From IMG/VR virus record IMGVR_UViG_3300036939_000049, positions 37,253 through 101,252 of that record: DNA of 64,000 nt. One strand, 5' to 3'. The DNA comes from a virus. This document shows positions 1,299 to 56,014 of this stretch, one piece after another (the first letter of the stretch is position 1; every line of letters starts with the position of its first letter). Made by a program: the position numbers and the translations under genes. Below the pieces are notes generated by a model. The model made no database searches. It was not told where the DNA came from and saw only the letters and a program-made list of their open reading frames with translations.

Positions 1299-4200
1299 AT
1301 GAAACCTCCTCACTTCGCCAAACGCCCAAAACCCCCGCTCCCGTCAGACGCCCCTACACTAGTCACTGCGTTTAGCTGCGGCGGGTTGTTTGATGTTGGT
1401 GCGTGGCATGCTGGGTTTCGACCTGTATTAGCCGTTGAGTTTTACCCAGCAAAAGGCAAGAAAGATGACAAAGTTAAACAGCGCCAGTCCGCCGCTGCGG
1501 CGGATAACTACGAGCGAAATTTAGGTAAGCACGTTGTCCGCAAAACCATTGAAGATGCTGTGCGCGATCGCGTCTTCGCCAATCACATTCAGCAACACGG
1601 AAGACCCAACGCCTTCCACTGTTCCCCCAGTTGCACCATGTTTAGTCAGGGGAATACCAAGGGTGTAGAAGATGAAGGGGATATTAGTGCCGCAATTGCA
1701 GTGACACATGCGATCGCACAGCTGAATTTTCCTGAAATTTTTACCCTGGAAAATGTCGATGCTTATCAAAAGTCAAAATCGTGGGCAATCATTCGCGACT
1801 TTCTCTACGCCAACGGGTACGGCGTATCGGGTGATGTGGTATTTGCTTCGGACTACGGAAATCTTGAGACGGGTGAGGGCGTGCCCCAAGACCGGAAGCG
1901 CTTTATTGTTCGCGCTGTAAAAAACCACTTTGCCCCACCGCTCCCGCCTAGACTTCCTCAGCGGATGGGATGGTTGAACGCGATCGTGGACTTAATTGAG
2001 GATCTACCTGAAGGTGAACTCGCACCGTGGCAACTTCAAAGACTACCAGCGTTGGTCAAGAGTGTACTTGTTGACGCAAAGAATATTCATCCCAACGACA
2101 AAATAACCACTAGAGAATTTGATCAGCCTGCATTTACCGTAACGAGTGACGATCGTTGTAGGATGCAAGCGTATTTGGTTCGCAACGATAACACCAAGCA
2201 GGAGTGGGGAAAAGGTTATCGAGAAGGGGAAGAACCATCGGCTACAGTTACTGCTACTTACGTCCCTTCGGCTGTGTTGCTGAACGGGCAGAACGCTTCT
2301 GGTAAAGAGGTTCCGCACAGACAAGAAGCTGAACCTGCATTCTCTATTACGACAGGAGCGAAGTGGGCATCGGCGTTATTAGTTGAGCGGGCCGGCGCAA
2401 GCGATGCGCGTATCACAGTTCGTACTGCCGAAGAACCAGCCTGGACTCTTCGCTCCTCCATCGGCACTGACCAAGATGGACGCAACCGCAATGAAGTGAT
2501 GAACGTGGTGATGGGGTATCGGGTCAAGCGATTGAATGCTCGTGCGATCGCGCGACTCCAATCTGTACCCGACTGGTATGAGCTGCCCGACCAAATGAAA
2601 GACGCCGGTCCACTACTGGGGAATGGGGTGCCATGCCTACTGGCAGAAGCGATTATGAAATCACTACTACGGTTCGTTCAGAAGTCTGAGAGTTCACTCT
2701 CACTTAAATCTCAGTTAACCCTTAATTCAAGTTGCGCTCGAACTGAACTCGACATTCAGTCCTCTGAAACAGCTCTGAACGGACTCTGCACGCCCAGTGA
2801 AAATTCAGTGTCAGTTAACTCTCAGTTCACTCCTAATTCAGATCGCGGACAAAGTGAGTTCACTCTATTAAAGGCATCGAACTCGACCAGTCCTCAAAAC
2901 GAAACACTGAACGGACTCCGAACGGTTACTGAAAATTTAGCGTCACTTCAAGAGCAATTCAATCCCAGTTCAATCCCAGTTCAGTCTCAGTTCAGTCTCA
3001 GTTTAACTCCGGTTAAATCACGGAAACCTTTTTTGAAGTGGGCGGGTAAAAAGACTTGGGCGATCGCACTTCTCGAAGAACTGTATGCTCCGCACCGACA
3101 TAAACGCTACCGCGATTTAACCTTAGGCTCAGGTGCAATCCCACTTGCACTTAAGCCCAATCGCGCTTACCTCTCGGATAAAAACCCGTTTCTTATCCAG
3201 TTGTGGGAGTGGGTTAAGTCTGACGGAAAGCTTACCCTTGACCTGCGGACGGATAAGGATTACTACTTAGAGTGTCGAGAGCGGTTTAATACTGGCGATC
3301 CGCAGCAAGCGGAGTTACTCTACTACCTCAACCACACCTGCTGGCGAGGGCTGTATCGCTCTAGCAAAGATAAGTTTTTCAATGTACCGTGGGGCGAGTA
3401 CAAAGAATTTCACGGGCAGACCGACCTTACCCATTACAAGCAAGTAATTGGAAACTGGGAGTTTGCAGTTGAATCCTGGGACGAAAGCTTGCGCCACGTC
3501 CAGGATGATGACTTTATCGTTTTTGACCCACCGTACCACTCAGTCAGCGGCAAAGGGTTTACTCAGTACTGTGGTTCATTCACAGAAGCCGACCAAGTAC
3601 TAGCCGCCCAAACTTTATCTGAGTTGGGCGTACCCGTTGTGGCATTCAACGCCGCTACTGACTTCATCCTCGATCTGTATCGAGGTCTAAACTTTGACGT
3701 TCAACTACATGAGGCTCCTCGCATGATTTCTTCTACAGGCGATCGCGCACCTGCGCTTGAAATGGTCGCGACCAAAAATACACAAGAGCAAAAGCTGGTC
3801 TATATTGAGAATTTCCTTGAGTCTAGACAAGCACAACCGGATGATTCCGAACTCATGTACACGAATCGTGTACATGAATCTGAAGCTACTGAGGGTGACT
3901 TAACCTACGATGAGCAACGCGATCGCGCTCACCTCGAACGGAAAGTTGAAGGGGCGTTCTATGAGGCCGGTAAAGCGCTGAAGGAGTTACGTGATCTCAG
4001 GTTGTACCGGACAACGCACAACGACTTTGAAAGTTACTGCTTAGATCGATTTGGCTTTGGTCGCCAGAATGCCCATAAACAAATCAAAGCCGCCGACGTT
4101 TTCGAGATTCTGTCTACGAATCATGTACAGATTTTGCCTTCTTGTGTTGATCAAGCTGCCCCGCTGGCACATGCTGACCTGACGGATGAGCAGCGGATTA

Positions 4201-12761: not shown

Positions 12762-14045
12762 ATGCGAGTTTTCGTTCTAGATAAAAACCTAATTCCTCTT
12801 GACCCTTGCCATCCAGCACGGGCGAGAGAACTACTACAAAAGGGGAGGGCTAAAGTATTCAAGCGATATCCATTCACTATTGTTCTACAAGATAGAACTG
12901 CGGAGGATTCGGTTACACATCCACATCGAGTCAAAATTGACCCAGGTAGCAAAGTTACAGGGTTTGCGGTTGTTCAAGAAGAAACAGGGCGAGTAACAAA
13001 TGCTTTAGAAGTTGCCCATCGGGGACAGCAAATCAAGGACTCCCTTGAGTCTCGACGCGCTTTAAGAAGAGGTCGGCGCAATCGAAAAACTCGATACCGC
13101 AAGCCTCGCTTCTTGAACAGAACTCGTAAAGCTGGATGGCTTCCACCTTCTCTTGAGAGTCGTATTACCAACATTGAGACTTGGGTAAAGAGACTCAGAA
13201 AACTTTGCCCAGTTACTGCAATTTCTCAGGAATTGGTAAGGTTTGATCTACAGAAAATAGAGAATCCAGAAATTAGTGGGGTTGAGTATCAAAGAGGCGA
13301 ACTGTTTGGCTTCGAGGTTAAGGAATATTTATTAGCTAAATGGAACAGGAAATGCGCCTATTGTGGAGTTGAGAACGTTCCTTTCGAGATTGAACATATC
13401 CTTGCCAAAAGCAAAGGGGGTTCAAACCGAGTTAGTAACCTCTGCCTAAGCTGTCATTCCTGCAACCAATCCAAGGGTAACAAGCCTGTTGAGGAATTCC
13501 TCAAGAAAAAGCCTGAAGTTCTCAAGAGGGTATTAGCTCAAGCCAAAGCACCCCTTAAAGATGCTGCTGCGGTTAACGCAACTCGTTGGGAACTGTATAG
13601 CCGCCTTCAATCTACGGGTTTACCTGTAGAGGTTGGGTCAGGCGGTCGAACAAAGTTTAACCGTAAAACCAGGGGGATTGAGAAACATCACTGGACAGAT
13701 GCCGCTTGTGTTGGAGCATCAACTCCAGAACAACTTCTGCTTAAGGGTGTCAAACCTCTGATTGTTAAAGCTAAAGGTCACGGAACTAGGCAACGCTGTC
13801 GCCCTGATAAGTTTGGTTTTCCAAAAGCGCATGCGCCCAGCGCTAAGTATTTTCAGGGCTTCCAAACCGGAGACATCGTTAAAGCCAACATCCCGTCTGG
13901 AAAATTTGCAGGTAATTATGTTGGCAGAGTTGCTATTCGATTTAGACCAAGTTTCGTCTTGCAACTGCCTACTCAAAAATTTGATGTACACCCAAAATAC
14001 TTGAAAACTATCCACAAAGCGGACGGCTATGAATATCAATTCTGA
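12762..14045 (+). CDS. iscB: IscB RNA-guided DNA endonuclease, copy 1
   Basis: A 427-residue protein, a normal IscB length. In order: an N-terminal PLMP-like domain (FVLDKNLIPLDPCHPARAR), RuvC-I with KIDPGSKVTGFAVV (Asp60), an arginine-rich bridge helix (RRGRRNRKTRYRKPRFLNR), RuvC-II with ISQELVRFD, an HNH domain with CAYC, IEHILAKSKGG and CHSCNQ, and RuvC-III with HHWTDAACVG. It is an ancestor-type relative of Cas9: it nicks both strands of DNA matched by the omega-RNA guide, next to a target-adjacent motif, and helps keep the transposon at its site. All catalytic residues appear intact. Confidence 0.93.
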   Translation: MRVFVLDKNLIPLDPCHPARARELLQKGRAKVFKRYPFTIVLQDRTAEDSVTHPHRVKIDPGSKVTGFAVVQEETGRVTNALEVAHRGQQIKDSLESRRALRRGRRNRKTRYRKPRFLNRTRKAGWLPPSLESRITNIETWVKRLRKLCPVTAISQELVRFDLQKIENPEISGVEYQRGELFGFEVKEYLLAKWNRKCAYCGVENVPFEIEHILAKSKGGSNRVSNLCLSCHSCNQSKGNKPVEEFLKKKPEVLKRVLAQAKAPLKDAAAVNATRWELYSRLQSTGLPVEVGSGGRTKFNRKTRGIEKHHWTDAACVGASTPEQLLLKGVKPLIVKAKGHGTRQRCRPDKFGFPKAHAPSAKYFQGFQTGDIVKANIPSGKFAGNYVGRVAIRFRPSFVLQLPTQKFDVHPKYLKTIHKADGYEYQF

Positions 14046-15961: not shown

Positions 15962-17245
15962 ATGCGCGTTTTCGTTCTAGACAAAAACTTAAAGCCTCTT
16001 GACCCTTGCCATCCTGCACGGGCAAGAGAACTACTACAAAAAAGGAGGGCGAAAGTATTCAAGCGCTATCCATTCACCATTGTTTTGCAAGATAGAACCG
16101 TTGAGGATTCGGTTACACATCCTCACCGAATCAAAATTGACCCCGGTAGCAAAATCACGGGCTTTGCTGTTGTTCAAGAGAAGACAGGTCGCGTCACAAG
16201 CGCCATTGAAGTCTCGCACCGAGGGCTGCAAATCAAGGATGCTCTTGAGTCACGCAGGGCATTACGAAGGGGTCGGCGTAACCGTAAAACCCGTTACCGT
16301 AAACCTCGTTTCTTGAACAGAACTCGTAAACAGGGATGGCTTCCACCTTCTTTTGAAAGTCGAATAGCCAATATTGAGACTTGGGTGCGGAGGATCAGAA
16401 AACTCTGTCCAATTTCAGACATCTCTCAAGAACTGGTAAGGTTTGACCTTCAACAGATGGAAAATCCTGAAATATCAGGAGTTGAGTATCAAAGAGGGGA
16501 GTTATTCGGATTTGAAGTTAAGGAGTACTTACTTCAAAAATGGGGTAGAAAATGTGCCTACTGCGGCATTGAAAACGTTCCGTTCGAGATTGAACATATC
16601 CTCGCCAAAAGCAAAGGTGGCTCTAATAGAGTTAGCAATCTCTGTCTGAGTTGTCATTCATGCAACCAAGCCAAAGGCAACAAGCCTGTTGAGGAATTCC
16701 TCAAGAAAAAACCTGAAGTTCTCAAACAGATTTTAGCTCAAGCCAAAGCACCTCTCAAAGATGCTGCGGCTGTCAATGCGACCCGATGGGAACTGTACAG
16801 ACGACTGCAATCAACTGGGTTGCCTGTAGAAGTCGGGTCTGGCGGTCGGACAAAGTTCAATCGTAAAACCAGAGGGATTGAAAAAGCTCACTGGACTGAT
16901 GCAGCTTGTGTAGGTGCGTCTACTCCAGGGCGATTACTTCTTAATGGGGTAAAACCACTGAATGTCAAAGCCAAAGGGCATGGAAGAAGGCAGCGTTGCG
17001 GTACAGACAAATTTGGATTCCCAGTCCGTCATGCTCCAAGTCAGAAACTTTTCATGGGATTCCAGACAGGTGACTTGGTTAAAGCTGATGTTCTGGCTGG
17101 AAAGTATGCAGGGAGCTATACGGGTCGAATTGCAATCCGATTCAAACCAAGTTTCAAGTTAACAACTGGAGGAAAGAGTTTTGACGTGCATCCGAAATAT
17201 TTGAAGACCATCCATAAGGCTGATGGCTACGAATATGCATCCTAA
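15962..17245 (+). CDS. iscB: IscB RNA-guided DNA endonuclease, copy 2
   Basis: A 427-residue protein collinear with copy 1 and very similar to it, with differences spread along the length and more of them in the last 80 residues. It keeps the RuvC-I aspartate (KIDPGSKITGFAVV), the bridge helix, the RuvC-II glutamate (ISQELVRFD), HNH residues (IEHILAKSKGG, CHSCNQ) and RuvC-III (HWTDAACVG). Both copies look intact, so the two elements diverged rather than arising from a very recent duplication. The different flanks imply different guides. Confidence 0.93.
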   Translation: MRVFVLDKNLKPLDPCHPARARELLQKRRAKVFKRYPFTIVLQDRTVEDSVTHPHRIKIDPGSKITGFAVVQEKTGRVTSAIEVSHRGLQIKDALESRRALRRGRRNRKTRYRKPRFLNRTRKQGWLPPSFESRIANIETWVRRIRKLCPISDISQELVRFDLQQMENPEISGVEYQRGELFGFEVKEYLLQKWGRKCAYCGIENVPFEIEHILAKSKGGSNRVSNLCLSCHSCNQAKGNKPVEEFLKKKPEVLKQILAQAKAPLKDAAAVNATRWELYRRLQSTGLPVEVGSGGRTKFNRKTRGIEKAHWTDAACVGASTPGRLLLNGVKPLNVKAKGHGRRQRCGTDKFGFPVRHAPSQKLFMGFQTGDLVKADVLAGKYAGSYTGRIAIRFKPSFKLTTGGKSFDVHPKYLKTIHKADGYEYAS

Positions 17246-17403: not shown

Positions 17404-18507
17404 ATGGTAAAAAGAGGACCAAAGATAAACCTCCGCGAAGCTTGGGAGGATGACGAAGAAGAGGTTCTTCCTGAACCTGAACTGGAGCTTGATGAGGTCG
17501 AATCAGCTCCAGATATTGAAGAAGTCCAGCAAGTTGAAGAAGAGGAAATTGTAGATGAGCGCGATCGCGCCAACCCAGAACCGGACGAACCTCAACAAGA
17601 GCCTGAGCAACCAAAGGCTGAGGAAGTCAAAAAAAAAGATGAGCTGCTTGTCCGTCACATAATCCCAATCGACCCGGAACTGGCGGAGCGAATGTGGGGG
17701 CGACCGTTAACCCCAGAGCAGCGTCAGCAACTTGAAGAAGACTGGGCGTTAGGCTTCCGACAATTAACGGATGAAGAGAGACGCTTCTGCGGTATCTCAA
17801 ACAACCCGGAAACTTATTCTCGGATGGAGGCTCTTTCAAAGAATTACTTGAAGGTATCTTTCCAGCAAGGTAAAGACGACTTAATTGTCTTAGAGTTAGC
17901 CAGCAAACAATACGGCTGGCCGGAGGGCTACCTCCGTGATGAGAACGGACGATTTACCGATCGCTGTGTTTTTGAACTCATGCAGCTTCGGCGTCGCGTT
18001 CGAGAATGGATACTTCCTGAAGAACCTGATGGGAGCATAGCTCTCGAAAAATATAAGCGAGGAGACTTAGCCGCCAAGCGCGGGATTCGGATAAAAAACC
18101 CACGTTACAGCCAACGGTTTGATTATCTAGATGCCCTGTTTGAACGGGCTAAACGCTGGAGGGCATGGAAAGAGGAACGCGATCGCGCAGTCCCTGTTGT
18201 TGTTGATGTTGGCGAAGCCGTGTTTGGGGAATTAGTTCTAACTCCTCAGACTAGAAGTCAACACGAAGCTCAACGCAGTGTCGCCCTTCAAAAGCTGGAA
18301 GAAGCAGAGCACTTACTGTGTTCTGTCCCGGAGCAGTTGAAAGACTCCATCTGGGAAACAGTCCGCCCATTATGGGCAAACGTTGGACTTGAATTGCGAG
18401 CCAACGGTATCGCATATGCGACTCAAATAATGCAAACAGGAGAAATCAATGAAAGCACTGAATCCGATCAGCCAAATGAACAACACCCAGACAGAGAATC
18501 CTATTGA
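17404..18507 (+). CDS. Hypothetical protein with acidic N-terminus, 367 aa
   Basis: Residues 10-80 are strongly acidic and Pro-rich (EDDEEEVLPEPELELDE) and likely disordered. Residues 85-330 are globular and charged, with PLTPEQRQQLEEDWALGF and KRGDLAAKRGIRIKNPRYS. It overlaps the start of the actin-like gene by 59 bases. The position next to an actin-like ATPase makes an adaptor or segregation partner possible, but no DNA-binding motif is plain. Confidence 0.6.
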   Translation: MVKRGPKINLREAWEDDEEEVLPEPELELDEVESAPDIEEVQQVEEEEIVDERDRANPEPDEPQQEPEQPKAEEVKKKDELLVRHIIPIDPELAERMWGRPLTPEQRQQLEEDWALGFRQLTDEERRFCGISNNPETYSRMEALSKNYLKVSFQQGKDDLIVLELASKQYGWPEGYLRDENGRFTDRCVFELMQLRRRVREWILPEEPDGSIALEKYKRGDLAAKRGIRIKNPRYSQRFDYLDALFERAKRWRAWKEERDRAVPVVVDVGEAVFGELVLTPQTRSQHEAQRSVALQKLEEAEHLLCSVPEQLKDSIWETVRPLWANVGLELRANGIAYATQIMQTGEINESTESDQPNEQHPDRESY

Positions 18508-19651
18508 GATACTGGGGCGTCCAAACGACCAGACTTGGATTTTCCCAGAGCCTATTAATTTGCCAGAAATCCCTGTTTTGATGTTGGATACAGGAAAATC
18601 TCCTGACAACGGCAACAAAATTGCAATGTTTCGTGATTCACGAACGCTTAATATCAAAAAGGTTCCTTGCAACCTAAACAAGAAACCAGGGCATATTGTT
18701 CAGTCAGACCCCTCCGATTTCTTTGCAGAACAATACAGCGATCCGGATGCATCCTTCTTGGAATTTGAGATGGATGGAGTTGTTTACACAGCTGGTAACC
18801 TTGCCGCTGACGAAAATGCTGGTGTAGGACTAGGTTTGGATAAGTTCGTTGACATAAAACCGCGTGTCACCTCGGCATTGGCTTTGTTTGGCATCACTGG
18901 ACCATTCGCGTTGTGTTTGACAGCAACCTACGAAAATCTGGAGCACTTTCAATATCAGTCTCGCCAGATGGAGAACGCCCTGTTGGGTGGGTTTAATTGG
19001 ACGACAATTTCTGGTTCTTTTTCTGCTCAAATCTTCAAGCAAGATACTGGGGATGACAATCCCGCAAAGAAAGGGTTGTTTACTATTCCTGAAAGTTCTG
19101 AATCCTGGCAGTTCCCTAAGCTTTTTGCTCAGGACAAAAAGCTTTCACTAGAAGGTAAACCTAACGTAACGGTTGAGCTTGGTTTTCAGACAACGAACTA
19201 TATGTTTCGTAAAGCAGGCGCGACGGCACCAGCGCCTGCTTTGTCTGGAGCCGATAAAGAACTGGGCGGAAATCTTTTTTACGCTGATATTGCTCAGCGA
19301 ATTGGTGCTAATAACCCCCAATCTCCGGAATTAATTAACGCTATTAATCGAGGTGACGCTAGTATTTACTTGCCAGAGCTGGGACAAAAGATAGCATTGC
19401 TCTCTGTAGTTAATGCGGCAAAGCCTAGCTTTGAAACTCGCTACATTGATAGCATTCTCAAAAATATGAGGAGCGAGTACAGAATCGTAACGCTATCTGG
19501 TGGAATGGTTTACTTGTTCGGACCCGCAATCAAGCAAGCTTTAGAGCAAAAAGGGTTTGAGGTGCGATTAATTCCGCAGTTTCCTGAATTAGCTCAAATC
19601 GTGTCCATGAGCGTCATGGCTGTTAATCGCTTCTATCGGATGTTTAACTAG
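18449..19651 (+). CDS. Actin-like plasmid segregation ATPase (ParM/StbA-like)
   Basis: A 400-residue protein. LMLDTGKSPDNGNKIAMF near residue 45 fits the phosphate-1 loop of actin-like ATPases. The C-terminal VTLSGGMVYLFGPAIKQAL followed by PQFPELAQIVSMSVMAV fits the adenosine-binding loop and final helix seen in ParM-type proteins. Such proteins form filaments that push plasmid or phage DNA apart. AGGAG seven bases upstream of ATG 18449 supports this start inside the upstream gene. The ParR-like adaptor and centromere are not identified. Remote assignment. Confidence 0.65.
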   Translation: MKALNPISQMNNTQTENPIEILGRPNDQTWIFPEPINLPEIPVLMLDTGKSPDNGNKIAMFRDSRTLNIKKVPCNLNKKPGHIVQSDPSDFFAEQYSDPDASFLEFEMDGVVYTAGNLAADENAGVGLGLDKFVDIKPRVTSALALFGITGPFALCLTATYENLEHFQYQSRQMENALLGGFNWTTISGSFSAQIFKQDTGDDNPAKKGLFTIPESSESWQFPKLFAQDKKLSLEGKPNVTVELGFQTTNYMFRKAGATAPAPALSGADKELGGNLFYADIAQRIGANNPQSPELINAINRGDASIYLPELGQKIALLSVVNAAKPSFETRYIDSILKNMRSEYRIVTLSGGMVYLFGPAIKQALEQKGFEVRLIPQFPELAQIVSMSVMAVNRFYRMFN

Positions 19652-30402: not shown

Positions 30403-30593
30403 CGACTTGGCGCGATCTCGTAGTAATATAATAAGTGATCGCACCCCACCTCCAATTTTTCCGGACGACGATCTCTACCCGATTTTTGCTGATTAATCAG
30501 CAAAAATTGAAAGTCAATCTCCGCCAGGAATCCAGCATTTTCAAAAGCTGCTTTCTTATTATTTTTTCGACTATAACCAAACCGCAACCACGA

Positions 30594-36834: not shown

Positions 36835-37491
36835 ATGGCTAATCCTCTGTCCGACAAGCAAAAAGCTACCAATTGGGAAACGCTGAAACATATTGAAATG
36901 GTTATGCAGCTGCTTGCTGTGATGCAGCATGAAATCTCCAAACGGATGTTTAGTCATGATCGCTCAAAACTTGAGTCTCCAGAACTGGAGATGTTTGAGC
37001 AATTTACAGACAGGCTTGCAGGATTGACGTATGGAAGCGACGAATACAAGCAATGTCTAGACGAAATGAAGCGATCTGCACTTCAGCATCACTATGAGAA
37101 TAATCGGCACCACCCTGAATTTTTTGCAGGGTGTCAAAAAGATGTGGACGCGATCACACAATGCAAAAGCGTGCTGACAGGATTAAAACAAATACAAGTT
37201 TCCTACCCTGAAGATGAATATGTTTTCGGTTATGCTAGTGACATCATTGAGGCTCATAAGCAGACCCTAGAAAGTAATGTCAATGGCATGAACCTTATTG
37301 ATATTTTGGAAATGATCTGCGATTGGGAAGCAGCGACTCTTAGGCATGATGATGGGGATATCTATCGTAGCTTAGAAATTAATAAGACACGATTCGGGCT
37401 TTCACCCCAGTTGGTTTCTATAATTCTCAATACTGTTCCGTTGCTCAATAGCATTTACAGTGCTAAAACCCAGAAGTACCTCAATCAATGA
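36835..37491 (+). CDS. DUF5662 family protein, 218 aa
   Basis: It shows the spaced His/Asp pattern of the phage-associated DUF5662 family: MFSHDRSKLESPE, ALQHHYENNRHHPEFF, NLIDILEMICDWEAATLRHDDGD. The histidines and aspartates suggest a metal-binding, HD-like helical enzyme of unknown substrate. It overlaps the next gene by four bases. Confidence 0.75.
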   Translation: MANPLSDKQKATNWETLKHIEMVMQLLAVMQHEISKRMFSHDRSKLESPELEMFEQFTDRLAGLTYGSDEYKQCLDEMKRSALQHHYENNRHHPEFFAGCQKDVDAITQCKSVLTGLKQIQVSYPEDEYVFGYASDIIEAHKQTLESNVNGMNLIDILEMICDWEAATLRHDDGDIYRSLEINKTRFGLSPQLVSIILNTVPLLNSIYSAKTQKYLNQ

Positions 37492-39428: not shown

Positions 39429-40007
39429 TTAACTCTTTTTCCTGAAACTTAATGTTGCTACAGCATTTTCTTTCTCTTTGTCAGCAACTTCTAAATACCT
39501 TTGAAGAACAGCTAAACTTCTATGCCCACTGATCGAACGAATAACGTTCAGTGGTATTCCTTGATGATGCATCATTGTTAATGCCGTTCTCCTAAAGCTG
39601 TGAGTGCTGGCCCCTTCAATTCCCCAGCACTGAAATATCTCCCTAAGTATTTTGTCCGCTGAATCAGAACGGATATGTCCTAACCCATGCCGTCCTGGAA
39701 ATAAATACTCTTTGTCTGTGTTGTATTCTAGTAGTAGTTCATGTAGTTCTTTACAAACTGGAACAACTCGTGTACTTAATTTTCCTTTAGTAGTACCGCG
39801 TCGAAAAGTAATGTGGGTCTTTGGCTTTCCACTGTGTCCATAAACATCAGCCTTGTGTAACGCACATGCCTCTGCTATACGACAGCCTGTGTAGAGACAA
39901 ATTCCGAACAAAGCCCGATCTCTTTCATTTAAAAACCCCCGCTCAAATAACAGAGTGATTTCTTCCGAGCTAAGTATCCGTGCTTGACCATTCCGCGCTA
40001 CTTTCAT
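39429..40007 (-). CDS. Tyrosine recombinase (phage integrase family), catalytic domain only
   Basis: A 192-residue protein. Catalytic residues are in order: Arg in YTGCRIAEACAL, His-x-x-Arg in HSFRRTALTMMHH, His in SGHRSLAVLQ and Tyr in LQRYLEVADKE. ATG 40007 has AGAGG upstream and is preferred to 40100, which would start inside an inverted repeat. The N-terminal core-binding domain of usual integrases is missing, as in some short cyanobacterial recombinases. It may integrate, resolve or invert DNA; no attachment site is identified. Confidence 0.85.
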   Translation of the reverse strand: MKVARNGQARILSSEEITLLFERGFLNERDRALFGICLYTGCRIAEACALHKADVYGHSGKPKTHITFRRGTTKGKLSTRVVPVCKELHELLLEYNTDKEYLFPGRHGLGHIRSDSADKILREIFQCWGIEGASTHSFRRTALTMMHHQGIPLNVIRSISGHRSLAVLQRYLEVADKEKENAVATLSFRKKS

Positions 40008-40016
40008 GCCTCTTAT

Positions 40017-40050
40017 CCTACACCATAAAATCTCCATTTTATGGTGTAGG
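40017..40050. promoter_or_regulatory. Perfect 15-bp inverted repeat upstream of integrase
   Basis: CCTACACCATAAAAT and ATTTTATGGTGTAGG with a CTCC spacer, 10 bases upstream of the integrase ATG. It could be an operator, a recombination site core or an mRNA hairpin. It shares ACCATAAAAT with the region upstream of the RHH gene at 38316. Confidence 0.6.
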
Positions 40051-40175
40051 GGGTTGAAATGGCGACTTTGCGTAGTATGATAAGTGGGTGCAACAAGCAT
40101 TTAAGCGATCGCACTCCTGACCGTGGAAAGTACGGAGGCGATCGCTTGTCCAAACCCCAACGAAGGATTATAGAC

Positions 40176-41632: not shown

Positions 41633-41700
41633 CTTCATATAAGGATGAAATGCGATCGCGAAGTGCCTCTGCAAAGCGCAGTTTGCGCTTCCAGATTCCA

Positions 41701-41719
41701 TGTACACGATTCGTGTACA
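41701..41719. repeat. 19-bp palindrome, perfect copy
   Basis: TGTACACGATTCGTGTACA, preceded by a HIP1-linked hairpin-like block (41650-41690), in the convergent gap between 41537 and 41774. Confidence 0.92.
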
Positions 41720-41773
41720 ACTAAAAACCCCTTCAAGACGACAGAGGTTTGATTGCGAGATTTGTGGGGCGCG

Positions 41774-42754
41774 TTACGCTTTAAGTTGCCTTTTGACTAC
41801 TTCAATGTCCGCAATGTTGTAGCTCATATAGCTCATGAATGTGACATCCTGTGCGCCACGCTGGTTAATATGCTCAAGCCAGTCCGTGTATTTGATATGC
41901 TTCTCTGTCTTGACCTTCTCTTCTTCTGGCAGCAATGCCCATTGACACTCAGCGTATATAGCCCGCAGTCCCTTGTAATTAATTCCGGGGTACTTACACA
42001 TTACCCTGCTCAATCCCATTGCATATGCCTTGTTTACCGCATTCCTGTCAGCTTGCTGTAGTTCCGGTTTTAGCCTCCTTCCTTGCTCATTCAAATAATC
42101 AATAGCCGCCTTAAGAATGGCAGCTCGAAACAAAGTAGGGATTGTGTAGTCAGTTGTGTCCTCCATGATTCTAGTTTTGGCTCGTCCAGAAAAATACAGT
42201 TGATAGTCACCAGCTACCTTGAATTTTCCGAGAGAATGCACCTCAGCCATTCTTCGACCTGTTCCAAGGGCAGCAGCGACCGATACTTTAGTCCAGTGGG
42301 GATTTAGTCCACTTGTTAATTGATCTAATGTCTTGTGGCAGTCAGCAATCAACTGACCAATTTCAACGGATGTCTTTTCCCGATTCCTGCTTTTTACCTG
42401 CTGCTTGTAAGTCTTAGTCAGTTCTACAGAGTCCTCTCGCTGGAAACTCAAGAGTTGGTTGTAGAAGTACTCAGTCAGAATTTCCATTGTTTCCTTGAGC
42501 AACGGAATTTCCTCATCCCCCATTACGAGCAATGCTTTCTTGATGTCCACCCTGCGAGTCTTCACAGTTGAGAATGCGTATTCTTGCATCTCAGACCGCG
42601 CGATCGCAGCAACTACCCCATTAATCTCTTCTTTCATGGCTTGGAAATCGCTACCTTTAGTTGCAATTTCCTTCAATCGTTTGTATGTCTTAGTTGCAAC
42701 CTCGGCTACCGGAATCTGATAATTCTCATTTTCAATGAATTCCTTGAGTTCCAT
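41774..42754 (-). CDS. Telomere resolvase (protelomerase) candidate, 326 aa
   Basis: The C-terminal half matches the telomere-resolvase catalytic core: AALGTGRRMAEVHSLGKFKV with the first arginine, LYFSGRAKTR with the lysine, TIPTLFRAAILKAA, then YKGLRAIYAECQW with the second arginine, HIKYTDWLEHI with a candidate histidine, and tyrosines in TFMSYMSYNI for the nucleophile. GRRM-E, FSG-AK and the RAIYA box are the phrases that separate TelN/TelK/ResT proteins from ordinary integrases. These enzymes cut a palindromic site and reseal it as hairpin ends, making linear replicons like phage N15. At 326 residues it is shorter than TelN and nearer the small resolvases. Which tyrosine is catalytic is not certain. 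Confidence 0.78.
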   Translation of the reverse strand: MELKEFIENENYQIPVAEVATKTYKRLKEIATKGSDFQAMKEEINGVVAAIARSEMQEYAFSTVKTRRVDIKKALLVMGDEEIPLLKETMEILTEYFYNQLLSFQREDSVELTKTYKQQVKSRNREKTSVEIGQLIADCHKTLDQLTSGLNPHWTKVSVAAALGTGRRMAEVHSLGKFKVAGDYQLYFSGRAKTRIMEDTTDYTIPTLFRAAILKAAIDYLNEQGRRLKPELQQADRNAVNKAYAMGLSRVMCKYPGINYKGLRAIYAECQWALLPEEEKVKTEKHIKYTDWLEHINQRGAQDVTFMSYMSYNIADIEVVKRQLKA

Positions 42755-42988: not shown

Positions 42989-43000
42989 AGCGCGATCACA

Positions 43001-43019
43001 TGTACACGAATCGTGTACA
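43001..43019. repeat. 19-bp palindrome, perfect copy
   Basis: TGTACACGAATCGTGTACA, 23 bp with its CA/TG flanks, between the kinase stop (43027) and the small Cys-rich gene start (42988). Confidence 0.93.
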
Positions 43020-43026
43020 TGAAAAA

Positions 43027-44349
43027 TCAAGCTTCTAGGTGGGGAAGTATCACCTGAATCTCGGTTCCCAGGTTTTCTTGAGATTCTACAATAATTTGAC
43101 CGTCGAGCAGGTCTACAGTTTTTTTCACGATTGCAAGTCCTAGACCAGTACCGGCAACAGCCCCAACATTACTCCCTCTTTCAAACACACCATACAAATC
43201 CATCGAAGACGGGATTCCTATTCCAGAATCCCTGACGATGAAACAAATTGTATTCGATTCTGCAACGACAAGCACAAGCACGGTTCCAGTACTGTACTTG
43301 AGCGCATTGCCGATTAAATTGCTAAAGATTTTGTATAGTAGACCCTCATCGCAGTATATCTCTGCGACTTGGATATTCAATAAGACGCGAGAGCTTTCAG
43401 GGAAAGACTCAATCAGCGCTTCAAACCAAGGACGCAGTTGGATAGTTACAGGATTAAGTTGAACACGTTCTGAGTCCAGCCGAAACACCAACAGTACATC
43501 ATCGGTCATGCGTGTGAGTCGCTCTACTCCTTTTTTGATTTGATTGATATGTCGATGAAACTTGTCGCTAGCTGGTGGATCTTTTTCCAATAACAAGGCG
43601 GCGGTTAAGATAGCGGTCAGTGGCGTGCGATATTCATGAGAAATAGTCTGAATGATTGCCGACTTTGCCTCGCTCACTTCCTCTTGTTTTTTTAAGGCCT
43701 CTTCTTTCGCCAGTCGCAACCCCTCTTCTAATTCCAACGATCGCTCAGCCCTGTCAAAAGCGAATTTCATTGCTTTTGCATTCTGATAGGTAAGCCACAG
43801 CAGTAGTAGCAACGAGGATATCGCAATAATTGTCAGGACTAAATCCCTTCGCTCTCGACGCCGCCGTTCATTAATTAAGCGATCGCGTTCCCCCTCCAGC
43901 TCTGTTTTTAATTCACCCAGAATCCCCCGCAGTTTATCCATGTGCTGCTTGCCTTGCCTTAATAATGCTGGTGATGGATTCTGGATTATTTTATTGGACA
44001 GTATCAAAAACTGATTCACTTGATTATCAAGTTCTGGGAATTGACCCTGGGTGTCTAATTCTTCCAACAGTCCCGGAAGTTGCCGCTGACCTTCCCAGTA
44101 AGGATCGAGAAATCTGGAATCTTTAGTGCCTGCAAATCCCCGTGTTCCAGTTTCTAGGTTGAGTAGTTGCGTGAGTAATTCATCAACGCTATCGGCTTTT
44201 TGCCGCACAGATGTTAGTTGTTCACTGGCGACTTTCTCTTGGTTCAACCGATAGTAAAACAAAGTACTGGAAGGTAAAGATAAAGCCCCGACGACCGCAA
44301 GCGCAAATACTGTACGCCTGTATAACTGACTAAATACTACAAGCGGCAT
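43027..44349 (-). CDS. CHASE3-type sensor histidine kinase, about 440 aa
   Basis: Two membrane segments (TVFALAVVGALSLPSSTLFYY near the N-terminus, written here by its ends TVFALAVV and LPSSTLF, and LVLTIIAISSLLLLLWL) bracket a CHASE3-like sensor domain with LLNLETGTRGFAGT. Then come a helical linker, a HisKA box with phosphorylated His (TISHEYRTPLTAIL), and an HATPase domain with N-box NLIGNALKYS, DSGIGIP, and GTGLGLAIVKK. It should autophosphorylate in response to an unknown signal. No response regulator is in the window. The start is uncertain: a longer frame to 44478 passes through a palindrome. Confidence 0.88.
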   Translation of the reverse strand: MPLVVFSQLYRRTVFALAVVGALSLPSSTLFYYRLNQEKVASEQLTSVRQKADSVDELLTQLLNLETGTRGFAGTKDSRFLDPYWEGQRQLPGLLEELDTQGQFPELDNQVNQFLILSNKIIQNPSPALLRQGKQHMDKLRGILGELKTELEGERDRLINERRRRERRDLVLTIIAISSLLLLLWLTYQNAKAMKFAFDRAERSLELEEGLRLAKEEALKKQEEVSEAKSAIIQTISHEYRTPLTAILTAALLLEKDPPASDKFHRHINQIKKGVERLTRMTDDVLLVFRLDSERVQLNPVTIQLRPWFEALIESFPESSRVLLNIQVAEIYCDEGLLYKIFSNLIGNALKYSTGTVLVLVVAESNTICFIVRDSGIGIPSSMDLYGVFERGSNVGAVAGTGLGLAIVKKTVDLLDGQIIVESQENLGTEIQVILPHLEA

Positions 44350-44429
44350 ACGATGAAGGGTTGCTGCTCCGAATTCTTCTATGATAAACGACTCGCTTTT
44401 AAACGTGGTGTAGGCGGATAGTTTATTGA

Positions 44430-44453
44430 GCACTTTCGTGTACATGAAAGTGC
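44430..44453. repeat. 24-bp even-centred palindrome with TGTACA core
   Basis: GCACTTTCGTGT and ACATGAAAGTGC pair at 11 of 12 positions with no spacer. It contains the TTCGTGTACA half-site of the 19-bp repeat. It lies upstream of the kinase. Confidence 0.6.
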
Positions 44454-44526
44454 AAGTGTGACGTGAACGTTTAAGCACTCCCGATTACTTTCAACGAAAT
44501 TGTGTAATAATTTTATAAATGCAAAG

Positions 44527-45499: not shown

Positions 45500-47101
45500 T
45501 CAAAAATACCCTCGAATATCCCTAGCTGAACTTCGTCTATCCTCAGACGTTCGTTCTTGCCGACGTCGTGCAGCTCCAAAGAAATCTCTCACGTTCTCAT
45601 CTTTGGTATCTTGCTTTAAGACTTTGCCAGCTTTCTTACGCGCCGCATAATTTGCCAACACCAACGCGATCGCGGCATCACCGTGACGCTTCCCACCATC
45701 TTTACCTTTATATCGACTTCGCTCTGGAACTTTGGGTACACCATTATGTTCTTCAATAGCGGCATGATCGGTTTTTATGTCTTCGTCATATGGCATCCGC
45801 AGACGCTCATCTTCCAACGCTTTTTTGTAATCTGGCATGGCTTCCAAATACCAAGGCTGTGTCGGCATCACTTTCTCAATGCGACTCGCGCCATACTTCG
45901 TTTCAGCAAACTCTGCCAAAGCCGTCCCATTCCCCCTAGCGTCACTAGCCCCACCACAGAAATTAGGGAGGTGGTCGATTACGCCGTACAGTATTTGCTC
46001 TTGCCGTTTGATTGGTACATTCCGCAGTTCTATAAGCAAGGGACAGTAGAGTCTTACCTTCCCTTCAATAGTCACACCACTCCAATCATCTTCGAGTAGT
46101 AACGCGATCGCGCTGATATCTCCCGTGCGTCCAAAGTCCATACCGTAATAAGACTTCTGGTGACGAGGTAAGGCGTTAATTAATGGGTAAATTTTGTCTT
46201 TGAGCCATTCCTGAATTTCTGTTAACTGTACGGGTTGAGACTTGATATTAAATTCATCAGGTAATGCTAGTCGCACCACCGAGTAGCGCCTATCCATTCG
46301 TGCTTCTACCAGTAATGGTGGAATGTAAGCTCCGCCACCTGCTTTTGGATTACAGAACAACTCCTCATCAGCGTCATCCCCATACTGATCGATCATGTCC
46401 TGCCGCCATTTCTCTTGCCCTTTAACAGACCAGTCTTTCCCAGTCATTAAACAAATACGCCTATACAACCCAGCCGCGATCGCGTCATCAAACGTGACTT
46501 TATGCAATGAGTACGGACGCTTCCCAGCCTTAACTTCTTCAATGAGCTGGTTAAACGCATTAGTTACACCGTCATGTGTTGAAATAATGTGTACCGAGCC
46601 GCCCCACATTAAGAGCGCGATCGCGGCTTTAAGTAACTCTAGTGGGTTTGGGTGGAAGGCAAATTCATCTAAGATGACTCGTCCTTTTTTCCCTCGCAAG
46701 TTAGTAGGGCGTGAAGTTAACCCAGTTACTCGATACCCTGATGCCATCTTGATGCGGTAAGCCAGAATATCGCGTTCTGATTGAATTACCTCTTCTGGAA
46801 ATACTACACCTTCCGATACCAGCTCCTGCTTACTAACAGCTGTCACCTCAGTTGCCACTTCTTGATACTGCTTTACCCAGAAAGTGCAATCCTGCATAAA
46901 CTCCAACGCACCTTCTTCGTTCGCGCCAATGTACCAAGTGTCTTTTCCATTTCGTCCCGATGTTGCTGCCATCAACACTGAGTCTGCCGCCTCAGCCCAT
47001 GTAATCCCAATCTGGCGGCTTTTTTCAATAATCTTGACGTCGCTTTTGTCTAATATCCATTGTTGCTGGTATGAAAGCAATACCGCTTTAGTCTCTGTCA
47101 T
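45500..47101 (-). CDS. terL: Phage terminase large subunit (Mu gp28-like)
   Basis: A 533-residue protein. The ATPase part has a Walker A-like EKSRQIGITW, a Walker B GRVILDEFAFH and a coupling motif IISTHDG. The RNase H-fold nuclease has YYGMDFGRTGDISA, SDARGNGTALAE and HGDAAIALVLA with metal-binding aspartates. It packages DNA into the head, and the Mu-type sequence agrees with the MuF protein at 30862. The C-terminal 45 residues are basic. The start at 47101 is divergent from the small gene at 47137. Confidence 0.9.
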   Translation of the reverse strand: MTETKAVLLSYQQQWILDKSDVKIIEKSRQIGITWAEAADSVLMAATSGRNGKDTWYIGANEEGALEFMQDCTFWVKQYQEVATEVTAVSKQELVSEGVVFPEEVIQSERDILAYRIKMASGYRVTGLTSRPTNLRGKKGRVILDEFAFHPNPLELLKAAIALLMWGGSVHIISTHDGVTNAFNQLIEEVKAGKRPYSLHKVTFDDAIAAGLYRRICLMTGKDWSVKGQEKWRQDMIDQYGDDADEELFCNPKAGGGAYIPPLLVEARMDRRYSVVRLALPDEFNIKSQPVQLTEIQEWLKDKIYPLINALPRHQKSYYGMDFGRTGDISAIALLLEDDWSGVTIEGKVRLYCPLLIELRNVPIKRQEQILYGVIDHLPNFCGGASDARGNGTALAEFAETKYGASRIEKVMPTQPWYLEAMPDYKKALEDERLRMPYDEDIKTDHAAIEEHNGVPKVPERSRYKGKDGGKRHGDAAIALVLANYAARKKAGKVLKQDTKDENVRDFFGAARRRQERTSEDRRSSARDIRGYF

Positions 47102-48256: not shown

Positions 48257-48820
48257 CTAATTAGCTTCTTCTGCAACTACTACTTCTACCCCCACAGGAG
48301 CTTCAACTGTAACAGGTTGAGGCTCCTCTTCTTTTGCTTCTACTATTCCTAGGATTCGCTTCCTGATTGAATCTGCCATTTCTTCTGATAACCCCCTAGG
48401 TGTGGTTATTCGCTCAGTCCCCTGCGCGATTGTCTGCTTCTCAGTGATACCAGCTAGCTTGATTACGCGATCGCACGCCGCTAATCTATCCACATCACGC
48501 TTGCCGTTTTTCATAATGTCGATAATTACATCAACAGCTTTAACAGCGGCTGTCTTTAGCTTTTCATCCACTTCCGTCAGGATGACTTGCGTTCGCGTGG
48601 CTTGATACTGCTGGGTTACTTTGACACGAGTTTCTTCCCTCGCATCTTTCTCATACGCGATCGCATCACTGATTTTTCCGCGTTTTAACCAAGCCCTTCC
48701 TGTGTTTCTTGCTATACCTGCTATTCTTGCCGCTTCTGAGATACTTTCTCCTCTAGCAATTGAGCTAACAAAAGCTTCCTCTTGGTCTGTTAACCCTATA
48801 TGGGCATTATGCTTAGCCAC
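48257..48820 (-). CDS. terS: Terminase small subunit candidate, about 187 aa
   Basis: LTDQEEAFVSSIARGESISE, then AARIAGIARNTGRAWLKRG, is the HTH opening of many terminase small subunits; a helical middle (VKAVDVIIDIMKNGKRDVDR) and an acidic Pro/Val tail follow. It should bind pac DNA and hand it to the large subunit at 45500. GTG 48820 is chosen because the extension to TTG 48925 is encoded by HIP1-rich sequence and has no clear ribosome-binding site; both remain possible. Confidence 0.7.
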   Translation of the reverse strand: MAKHNAHIGLTDQEEAFVSSIARGESISEAARIAGIARNTGRAWLKRGKISDAIAYEKDAREETRVKVTQQYQATRTQVILTEVDEKLKTAAVKAVDVIIDIMKNGKRDVDRLAACDRVIKLAGITEKQTIAQGTERITTPRGLSEEMADSIRKRILGIVEAKEEEPQPVTVEAPVGVEVVVAEEAN

Positions 48821-48925
48821 AATCTTACTCGTTGGTGTTTGCGCGATGCTCAACTGACATGGATAGTTCTGCGCGATCGCCTGAGCAGCTCCGCTCAACG
48901 CCCTGCGCGATCCTTTCAATATCAA

Positions 48926-52287: not shown

Positions 52288-53367
52288 ATGGCAACAACCA
52301 AGAAAACAACAATCGCAAAAGCTAAAGATCCATACGTTCACGAGTTTCCCGCCATGCGTGGTGTTATGGCTGGGCGTGAGTTTTACTCCTGCATTGTCCC
52401 TATTCGAGTCCTCACTAAAATCTTTCTGTTCGATGAAGAAGAAGTTCCGGTTGAACTTCGGGTGCAGCGCACGTTAAACCCAAAGCGTGCTGATGACATC
52501 CGTGACTATGTAATCGATAACCCTAAAGATTACGTTCTACCTTCTCTCACGGCATCCGTTGACGGAGAGCTTGAATTTGTCCCAATCTCTGATGAGGGGG
52601 ACTTGAGAAAATTGGGCGTACTGCGTGTCGCGATCGCGTCCAGATTTATTCTCAACGATGGTCAGCACAGAAAGGCTGGACTGACCAAGGCCCTGCAAGA
52701 AAACCCACAGCTAGCCTATGAGTCGGTCAATGTTCTGTTCTTTCTAGATATCGGGTTGAAGCGATGCCAGCAAATCTTTTCCGATATCAATCGGAACATG
52801 AAAATCCCGGATGCGGCAATCAACATTACCTTCGATCATCGTGACGCGATCGCGGTAATGACTCGTGAAGTTATCAAAGAAATACCGTTCCTACGCCAGT
52901 TTGTTCAACAAGCGGGAGGAACCATTAAGGCTAAGAGTAACAAGCTTTTGGTAGTAACTTGGGTGTACAAGGCTAATCAACGAATCAGTGCGGTGCTGGC
53001 ATCAGGTCAGCAGGAGTTTTGCTTGAAATTCTGGGAAGCGCTGATTGCTAATACACCCAAGTGGCAAGAGGTGCTAAATCAGGAGATATCGGCAGAGGTT
53101 CTGCGACGTGATTACATTTGTTGTACCGCGATCGCGATTGAAGCTTTCTCTCATCTAGGTGTAGCACTAGCTCAAAATCCAACCTATATCGAACATCCAG
53201 AAAAGATGCTAGATAAATTAGCATCCCTTGCGACCGTTGATTGGTGGAAGCAAGAAAAAACTTGGTTGGGTATGGTTGTAGATACCAATGGACGAATGCT
53301 GACCAAGAAAGAGAACATCCAGCTACTTATTCAGCATCTATCACAAGTTACAGGAATACGCGCATGA
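52288..53367 (+). CDS. DGQHR-domain protein (DndB-like)
   Basis: A 359-residue protein. FILNDGQHRKAGL is the signature of the DGQHR/DndB family; LRVQRTLNPKRADDIRDYV upstream and QQIFSDINRNMKIPDAAIN downstream fit the same fold. DndB regulates DNA phosphorothioation operons in bacteria, while relatives on plasmids and phages have unknown roles. Here the other family-linked gene is the DndC/PAPS-reductase-like protein at 55037, but DndD and DndE are not seen. It overlaps the next gene by four bases and starts an operon. Confidence 0.78.
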   Translation: MATTKKTTIAKAKDPYVHEFPAMRGVMAGREFYSCIVPIRVLTKIFLFDEEEVPVELRVQRTLNPKRADDIRDYVIDNPKDYVLPSLTASVDGELEFVPISDEGDLRKLGVLRVAIASRFILNDGQHRKAGLTKALQENPQLAYESVNVLFFLDIGLKRCQQIFSDINRNMKIPDAAINITFDHRDAIAVMTREVIKEIPFLRQFVQQAGGTIKAKSNKLLVVTWVYKANQRISAVLASGQQEFCLKFWEALIANTPKWQEVLNQEISAEVLRRDYICCTAIAIEAFSHLGVALAQNPTYIEHPEKMLDKLASLATVDWWKQEKTWLGMVVDTNGRMLTKKENIQLLIQHLSQVTGIRA

Positions 53368-54650: not shown

Positions 54651-55031
54651 ATGACACAACAAAAAACACGCAAAATCGAAGATTTCTCTTGGTCGTACAA
54701 GGGATCTGAGTGTCATGCTCAAATAGAAAGCGACGATCCTTTTGTCTGGGCGCAACAACGATGTCGCCAAAACCCAATTTATTGGCAGATAGATTTTCCC
54801 AATTCTTACTTTGTCGAGAAACAACCATTTCAGCAAAGCCTAGATGAATGCATACTCAAGCTTGAAATGCTTATTGAGGCAAGCGGTATCGATCCATTGA
54901 TAAAAAAGCGCCTACCTAAGGAGTTGTTTGATGGGTATCAATTTCAATGTAGCCAAGCTGAGCTAAGAGAAATTCTTGACAAGTTGATACCCGTTCCAGG
55001 TCAACTCTCTTTATTCTCTTCATGGGATTAA
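54651..55031 (+). CDS. Hypothetical protein, 126 aa
   Basis: Landmarks IEDFSWSYKGSECHAQIES and LSLFSSWD at the C-terminus. It abuts the PAPS-reductase-like gene, and could be its partner. Family unknown. Confidence 0.5.
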   Translation: MTQQKTRKIEDFSWSYKGSECHAQIESDDPFVWAQQRCRQNPIYWQIDFPNSYFVEKQPFQQSLDECILKLEMLIEASGIDPLIKKRLPKELFDGYQFQCSQAELREILDKLIPVPGQLSLFSSWD

Positions 55032-55036
55032 AATTC

Positions 55037-56014
55037 ATGACATTATTTGATCTCGCCGAATACGATCAGCGAACGATCGCGTGCGACAAACACCTCAAAG
55101 AAATTAGTAGTGTTGCTGACGCAGTCGTTGTGAGCGTCTCGTCTGGCAAAACCTCAACCTATCTTGCTCTCAATAAAGATCCAGAAGACAAGCGCCCATA
55201 CTACTATCAGTTTGCCGTTGTCCTGACGAGTGATTTGAATGCGCGCCCAAAAGACAAAGGTTTGCTCAGGGAATGTCAGAAACGCATCCCTTGGTTTGAA
55301 GCTTCTCATGAAGTAGATGATTCGCTCAAGGTCATCTTGCAGCTTGAGCAAGAGCTAGGGCAGGAGGTTCGCTGGGTCGCATCACCAATGACTTTTGAGG
55401 AACTAATAGTAGCGAAAGGACAATTGCCTAACCGATCAAGACGTCTCTGCACTCAATACCTAAAATATGAGCCTCAGTTTTGGGATACTTACCTCAATCT
55501 AGGCGAAGGGTTAGCTGTCCAGAACAACAGCTTTATTCCCAACCCGTTGTCGATAGAAGTCCAGATTGGGTACAGGTGGGATGAGCGGCAACGAGTGTAT
55601 CGTGCTTTGGGTCTTGAAGCTAATAGTAGCGATTGCGATGCATTTGAGTTCGCCTATTGCTGCGACTTAGATGGGCAGTTTACCGGAAAACACCGATGGA
55701 GAAAAGTAGATTGGCGGATACGGACTTTCCCTCTGTACAGTCGCCGCATTACGACCGAAAATGTGTGGAAATATTGGGAGTACAGAGGATGGAACTACAA
55801 ATTTCCAAAAATTTCCAACTGTGTACTCTGTTTTCATAAGACAAAAGAAGAATTACAGTGTCAATCGGCTCTTTACCCTGAACGAGTGCCTAACTGGATG
55901 GCGCAAGAGGCTAAAACAGGGCATACGTTCAATAAGACCGCTAGTCTTCAAGAAATCATCTTTGAGGGCGCATCAGCAGAATCTGATTCTATGCCTTGCT
56001 CTTGTACAGATTAG
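55037..56014 (+). CDS. DndC/PAPS-reductase-like ATP pyrophosphatase
   Basis: A 325-residue protein. VVVSVSSGKTSTYLAL replaces the usual SGGKDS PP-loop, and RSRRLCTQYLKYEP matches the RxCT-xxxK phrase of phosphoadenosine phosphosulfate reductase-like proteins. CVLCFHKTKEEL and the C-terminal CSC may hold a metal or FeS cluster. These enzymes adenylate or reduce small molecules; the DndC branch puts sulfur into DNA. ATG 55037 is preferred (GGGA eight bases before) to 55022, which overlaps the previous gene. Substrate unknown. Confidence 0.75.
   Translation: MTLFDLAEYDQRTIACDKHLKEISSVADAVVVSVSSGKTSTYLALNKDPEDKRPYYYQFAVVLTSDLNARPKDKGLLRECQKRIPWFEASHEVDDSLKVILQLEQELGQEVRWVASPMTFEELIVAKGQLPNRSRRLCTQYLKYEPQFWDTYLNLGEGLAVQNNSFIPNPLSIEVQIGYRWDERQRVYRALGLEANSSDCDAFEFAYCCDLDGQFTGKHRWRKVDWRIRTFPLYSRRITTENVWKYWEYRGWNYKFPKISNCVLCFHKTKEELQCQSALYPERVPNWMAQEAKTGHTFNKTASLQEIIFEGASAESDSMPCSCTD

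Follow-up and report, generated by a model that had tools for sequence, protein, structure and literature searches.

A putative telomere resolvase on a tailed cyanophage fragment and its relatives on fold-back-ended plasmid contigs of filamentous cyanobacteria

Introduction

Work on hairpin telomeres is well advanced in Borrelia, Agrobacterium and a small number of proteobacterial phages. The telomere phages N15, PY54, phiKO2 and VP882, and those of PMC12042878, are tailed phages with a resolvase and a partition gene, and they are known from Enterobacteriaceae as well as from genera such as Pseudomonas, Vibrio and Halomonas (PMC12042878). For cyanobacteria, hairpin-ended linear chromosomes are named in passing only (PMC3558466). 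Our literature search, whose coverage was incomplete, found nothing that joined protelomerase with Nostoc or telomere phages with cyanobacteria.

We analyzed a 64,000-bp stretch of DNA (the window), which spans positions 37253 to 101252 of a 101,252-bp IMG/VR contig (the record); coordinates without a prefix refer to the window. An initial annotation had proposed that this phage encodes a telomere resolvase of the TelN/TelK/ResT kind and has an N15-like life cycle. The gene in question, telR, encodes a protein that shares its catalytic domain, fold and catalytic residues with TelN/TelK, the VP882 protelomerase, TelA and ResT, and, as in the temperate phages N15 and VP882, it is accompanied by a partition gene. 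At 326 aa it is shorter than TelN (631 aa) and the VP882 protelomerase (538 aa), lacks the C-terminal domain and falls in a cyanobacterial group. The phage also differs from N15-like phages in its cyanobacterial host, Mu-like packaging genes, size of at least 101 kb and type of partition protein (ParM/CorM-like here, ParAB in N15), and in that no resolvase target site (tos) or hairpin end was seen. Whereas the 56-bp site of N15 lies 220 bp, and the 24-bp palindrome of VP882 187 bp, upstream of the resolvase start, no such site adjoins telR.

Results and Discussion

Identity of the telR product

The telR reading frame is intact and begins with ATG (Table 1). Its product matches PF16684 (ResT-TelK_cat) with 68.3 bits (E 8.3e-19), against a curated cut-off of 27 bits, and the translation contains the phrases GTGRRMAEV, YFSGRAKTR and LRAIYAE. 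A search with the single sequence found TelK weakly. A profile built from 21 relatives retrieved TelK (1e-19), TelA (6e-15) and ResT (6e-10) from the PDB, and no match to Xer, Cre or Int appeared at any E value of 10 or less. The AlphaFold model has a mean pLDDT of 72; most of the catalytic domain scores 80-97, the C-terminal His/Tyr loop is lower, and the N-terminal half is of low confidence (50-60). In a fold search, the best matches of the model were TelA, TelK and ResT (E 5e-9 to 9e-5).

Table 1. Features of the window and partner genes at related loci
Feature	Position	Strand	Evidence or remark
ParM/CorM-like actin-type partition protein	18449..19651	+	PDB CorM E 4.4e-7; phrog_691 partition protein E 2e-6
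26-bp perfect zero-spacer palindrome, weak tos candidate	30482..30507	.	
Small tyrosine recombinase, cyanobacterial-plasmid type, 190 aa	39429..40007	-	PF00589 E 1.5e-20
Perfect inverted repeat, 15 bp, 4-bp spacer	40017..40050	.	just upstream of recombinase start
21-bp palindromic repeat ATGTACACGAWTCGTGTACAT, candidate operator	41700..41720	.	downstream of telR
Telomere resolvase telR (predicted), 326 aa	41774..42754	-	PF16684, PDB profile, fold search, Symploca relative
Conserved small phage gene	42791..43030	-	directly upstream of telR; 77% identical to gene of relative phage G391
21-bp palindromic repeat, same family as record-wide copies	43000..43020	.	upstream of telR
Terminase large subunit, related to Mu-like phages	45500..47101	-	PF03237 E 2e-10
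Terminase small subunit	48257..48925	-	phrog_4102 E 5e-6
Partner gene	L004:3874-4833		
Partner gene	L005:15889-16884		
Partner gene	L006:20755-21720		
Partner gene	L033:7167-8072		
Partner gene	L144:2622-3518		
Partner gene	L177:5281-6177		

Telomere resolvases belong to the same superfamily as XerC/D and lambda-type integrases, and lambda Int and XerA did appear as weak matches in the fold search (only at E ≥ 0.025). However, the PF16684 score is well above the cut-off, the meaningful PDB profile matches are to TelK, TelA and ResT only, and PF00589 (Phage_integrase) does not match the telR product, whereas it does match that of the neighboring frame at 39429-40100. That an ordinary integrase was misread as a resolvase is therefore hardly conceivable. 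The predicted telR product is almost certainly a telomere resolvase; both the profile search and the structure prediction bear out the initial annotation, which had set it apart from ordinary integrases, and the profile search did not group it with XerC/D-type enzymes.

In the tree, the window protein pairs with a protein from Symploca (support 100/99). The pair falls in a cyanobacterial group of 20 rows, separate from N15 and VP882, with deeper forks partly unsettled. The N-terminus of the protein agrees with that of a clade of cyanobacterial resolvases of about 345 aa.

Catalytic residues and selection

We checked the telR product for the telomere resolvase signature R-K-(K/H/Y)-R-H-Y. Aligned to the Symploca relative (58% identical), it has the complete set: R167/R168, K193, K261, R264, H295 and Y309. 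The position of His295 was set by alignment to LGHLDKEGRLDATFMSY of the Symploca L144 protein. Because this relative has EWLGHLDKEGRLDATFMSYMVY where the window protein has DWLEHINQRGAQDVTFMSYMSY, we take His295 and Tyr309 to be the catalytic pair. In multiple alignments with distant relatives the catalytic histidine had appeared to be lost (Gly300/Ala301), a reading ruled out by the closer Symploca relative, which points to His295. The enzyme is thus predicted to be catalytically complete. In TelA, the hairpin-refolding residues are Tyr201 and Arg205, in the N-terminal domain.

Identity between telR and the 58%-identical relative is 66, 77 and 42% at codon positions 1, 2 and 3, with a dN of 0.33 and saturated dS. 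Since third positions are far more diverged than first and second positions, the gene has been under purifying selection.

The phage record

The record encodes the large and small terminase subunits, a Mu-like portal, a major head protein and an endolysin, as well as a MuF-like protein of 1920 aa, DnaB, DNA polymerase A and ribonucleotide reductase. The large terminase shows 41-46% identity to its counterparts in Mu-like phages and others. The initial annotation had placed terminase, tail genes and an actin-like ATPase in the window; the terminase and the ATPase are there, but clear tail-gene matches lie in the left part of the record, outside the window. Comparison with a relative phage shows that at least the tail/tape-measure region is absent from the 101-kb record, which is an incomplete phage genome, a fragment. 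Its last ~130 bp, at the right end, resemble what we take to be the beginning of an IS200/605-type element, and this may be why the contig breaks off there. HIP1 octamers (GCGATCGC) occur 131 times, against about 1 expected, and this excess supports a cyanobacterial host.

Viral contigs searched with the single telR protein gave no match, and a search with the resolvase alignment gave one 4.4-kb contig. The search for terminase relatives gave one relative of 48.5 kb, without a resolvase; none were found for the 1920-aa MuF protein, and those of DnaB were too distant for use in comparison. In a relative phage fragment whose terminase is 67% identical, an XerC/D-type integrase is present in place of a resolvase.

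The 21-bp palindrome ATGTACACGAWTCGTGTACAT occurs in nine copies in the record at up to 2 mismatches and in 19 at up to 4, many of them intergenic; copies in the window include those at 3855, 38953, 40976, 41700, 43000, 45475, 51463 and 60096. These palindromes are probably operators of a phage repressor.

The record is a metagenomic contig and its pair of telR and recombinase genes is plasmid-like, as might be expected if telR from a co-occurring plasmid had been joined to a phage contig during assembly. However, the gene directly upstream of telR is 77% identical in relative phage G391, which ties telR to the phage backbone, and the record-wide 21-bp repeats lie on both sides of telR. We therefore regard a chimera as very improbable.

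Plasmid traits

The actin-like ATPase of the initial annotation was confirmed as a ParM/CorM-like partition protein (Table 1). The second plasmid trait is the small tyrosine recombinase. Its listed reading frame extends to 40100, and a start at MKVARNG is likelier. At E 1e-20 it has homologs in 118 plasmid records, whereas the phage collection yielded none at E 1e-10. Recombinase copies that are 50-56% identical adjoin 16 telR loci, and on Symploca contigs L144 and L176 the recombinase adjoins telR, the same pair as in the phage. An inverted repeat of the CTGTAG..CTACAG type was also seen by eye upstream of plasmid homologs of the recombinase; the copy in the window (Table 1) is possibly a recombination site or an operator.

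Cyanobacterial relatives with fold-back contig ends

Short resolvases of ~345 aa occur at 42 loci in many filamentous cyanobacteria, and also on plasmids, where they are annotated as 'protelomerase family protein', and the resolvase family is carried by 15 of 386 sampled cyanobacterial genomes. Proteins of pANACY.06, pNsp_f and a Nostoc UHCC 0870 plasmid belong to the same length class and group as telR, at 25-32% identity, and several plasmids of this type carry the same small recombinase as the phage.

Several resolvase contigs terminate in a perfect fold-back palindrome, and the center (TTCCTTGYTCTC WW GAGARCAAGGAA) is common to them. Among 218 genomes of one cyanobacterial family, a search with TTCCTTGYTCTCWWGAGARCAAGGAA found 14 sites, which are spread over 9 genomes, and its reversed control found 0. 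At all 14 sites the length of the perfect fold-back arm equals the distance to the contig end. An arm that always reaches the contig end is the expected outcome when reads continue around a hairpin, which supports hairpin-ended plasmids. Five contigs of 18-90 kb have the palindrome at both ends and match by size the loci L023, L029, L036, L038 and L041/L042, all of which carry a resolvase. Tolypothrix FACHB-123 contig98 (20,847 bp) and Anabaena UHCC 0204 scaffold62 are examples of such two-ended plasmids. Fold-back ends were observed on the cyanobacterial plasmid contigs of L019, L023, L028, L029, L032, L036, L038, L041/L042 and L177. Plasmid pNsp_f was deposited as a linear molecule; it has the half-site of this palindrome at one end and shares TAGTCCTTGCTATCA at the other.

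The closest relatives of the window protein are the resolvases of Symploca contigs L144, L176 and L177, which are 58% identical over 320 aa and share its catalytic motifs and neighboring recombinase. They differ in having ~80 extra N-terminal residues and a partner gene, and one of their contigs is hairpin-ended. Contig L177, which carries the start of its telR and the divergent partner gene, begins with a 124-bp fold-back palindrome centered on the junction of GTTATACTCTCT and AGAGAGTATAAC, a center unlike that of the other fold-back contigs. No terminase homolog was found in the Symploca genome, so the Symploca element is apparently a plasmid and not a phage. By our reading, a hexamer, either CAAGGA or TATAAC, recurs in each of the two telomere types at equal offsets of +6 and +19 from the center.

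These independent assemblies strongly support the occurrence, in filamentous cyanobacteria, of linear plasmids that are hairpin-ended and encode related resolvases. By sequence, the telR enzyme belongs to a cyanobacterial clade predicted to form the hairpin ends of such plasmids. The initial annotation had called this lifestyle hardly described in cyanobacteria; this holds for phages; as to plasmids, related resolvases are common on fold-back-ended cyanobacterial contigs.

Two further loci allow more than one reading. Plasmid pANACY.06, deposited as circular, holds one non-palindromic telomere half-site (L004:560-760), and could be either a circularized derivative or a mis-joined linear plasmid. 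A 4.68-Mb cyanobacterial contig contains a perfect palindrome with 3079-bp arms (L120; G032:C1:2110111-2116269) whose sole contents are two identical 876-aa resolvase-like genes in inverted orientation; it is either an integrated hairpin mini-element or an assembly artefact.

Split architecture of the short resolvases

At the short-resolvase loci examined, telR is adjoined by a gene of ~300-330 aa (Table 1), the C-terminal part of which resembles that of long (600-700 aa) cyanobacterial resolvases. The short resolvase and its partner are predicted to be a split enzyme. Nearly all resolvases of ~345 aa (short clade, L016-L058) have Asp in place of the catalytic His (LGDxDE, with LGD for LGH), including those on hairpin-ended plasmids. 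The short plasmid resolvases, with this Asp and an adjoining partner of ~320 aa, thus differ from the window protein, which has His295 and for which the phage record yielded no partner gene.

The missing partner and the absent Symploca-type N-terminal extension would suit a plasmid gene that has decayed or was captured recently and has no function in the phage, and resolvase remnants with stop codons occur in other genomes. In telR, however, the frame is open, the catalytic set is present and the codon positions show the pattern of selection described above; moreover, the N-terminus matches the ~345-aa clade and the 21-bp repeats flank the gene. We consider a functionless gene improbable.

Search for a telomere in the record

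Palindrome scans that recovered both controls, telRL of N15 and the 24-bp palindrome of VP882, found no zero-spacer palindrome of the tos kind within several kb of telR. The 101-kb record contains no CTCT/AGAG telomere. The long palindrome or fold-back that the initial annotation had suggested seeking at the ends was found at neither end of the record, which is a fragment; the sequence at its right end is repeat-like. As the tail/tape-measure region is missing, the absence of a telomere is weak evidence. The left contig end (ATAACG..TATAA) was considered as a telomere and ruled out by scoring, at rank 8952 of 67472.

The palindrome at 30482-30507 is a weak tos candidate. It is the only 13-bp half-palindrome in the 101-kb record, a length reached by 0 of 150 simulated sequences, and so is unlikely to have arisen by chance. 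It lies 11 kb from telR, is without the CTCT/AGAG center of the relatives, and was not found elsewhere when looked for.

Proposed life cycle

The telR product would most likely act during lysogeny, with the prophage as a partitioned extrachromosomal element. Replication of the prophage would make head-to-head joined copies; a resolvase dimer would then bind the palindromic telomere junction, cut both strands with Tyr309 and reseal each end as a hairpin. From the family, catalytic residues and selection of telR, the phage backbone with its plasmid genes, and the fold-back ends of relatives, including one with the window-type enzyme, we infer that the phage itself has such telomeres and a linear prophage. 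The N15-like life cycle of the initial annotation is thus plausible with respect to the phage genes and partition gene, but neither a tos by telR nor fold-back ends were found.

Alternatively, the phage-plasmid prophage may be circular or integrated. The small recombinase, of a type carried by many cyanobacterial plasmids, would then resolve dimers or integrate, and telR, having arrived with a plasmid module, would serve another purpose, acting on replication junctions, in ssDNA annealing or on hairpin plasmids of the host. This reading agrees with the presence of that tyrosine recombinase, the absence of a telomere, fold-back end and partner gene from the record, and the integrase in place of a resolvase in the relative phage fragment, all of which count against our proposal; single-strand annealing by telomere resolvases is also described in the part of the literature that we consulted (PMC7861564). 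Against it, telR is intact, catalytically complete as predicted and under purifying selection, its closest relative is on a hairpin-ended contig, and a telomere missing from an incomplete record means little. On this evidence a circular or integrated prophage seems rather unlikely, although worth keeping in mind.

We think that telR probably functions in making the hairpin ends of the phage's own prophage. The fuller proposal, that a tailed cyanophage with Mu-like packaging genes persists as a hairpin-ended linear plasmid and has exchanged its resolvase with hairpin plasmids in which the enzyme is split into a short resolvase and a DNA-binding partner, appears to us evenly balanced between right and wrong. 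A cyanophage with a resolvase, together with many plasmid contigs that show telomeres of conserved sequence, allows a direct test of the telomere question in cyanobacteria and suggests that genes pass between phages and linear plasmids. Material for mechanistic work is offered by the compact resolvases, among them a large clade in which the canonical catalytic histidine is missing. In our view the most valuable outcome is the evidence for hairpin-ended linear plasmids of filamentous cyanobacteria. That these are a widespread and hitherto undescribed class, taken jointly with the reading of a cyanobacterial telomere phage, is a proposition we would neither favor nor disfavor.

Other genes in the window

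Between telR and the terminase gene lies a sensor histidine kinase with a CHASE3 domain (43027-44478), which is unusual for a phage. A DndB homolog (52288-53367; E 3e-94) and a PAPS-reductase-like protein (55022-56014) are possibly linked to DNA phosphorothioate modification. Two nearly alike RRXRR-HNH genes, which we take to be IscB-like, are located at 12762-14045 and 15962-17245.
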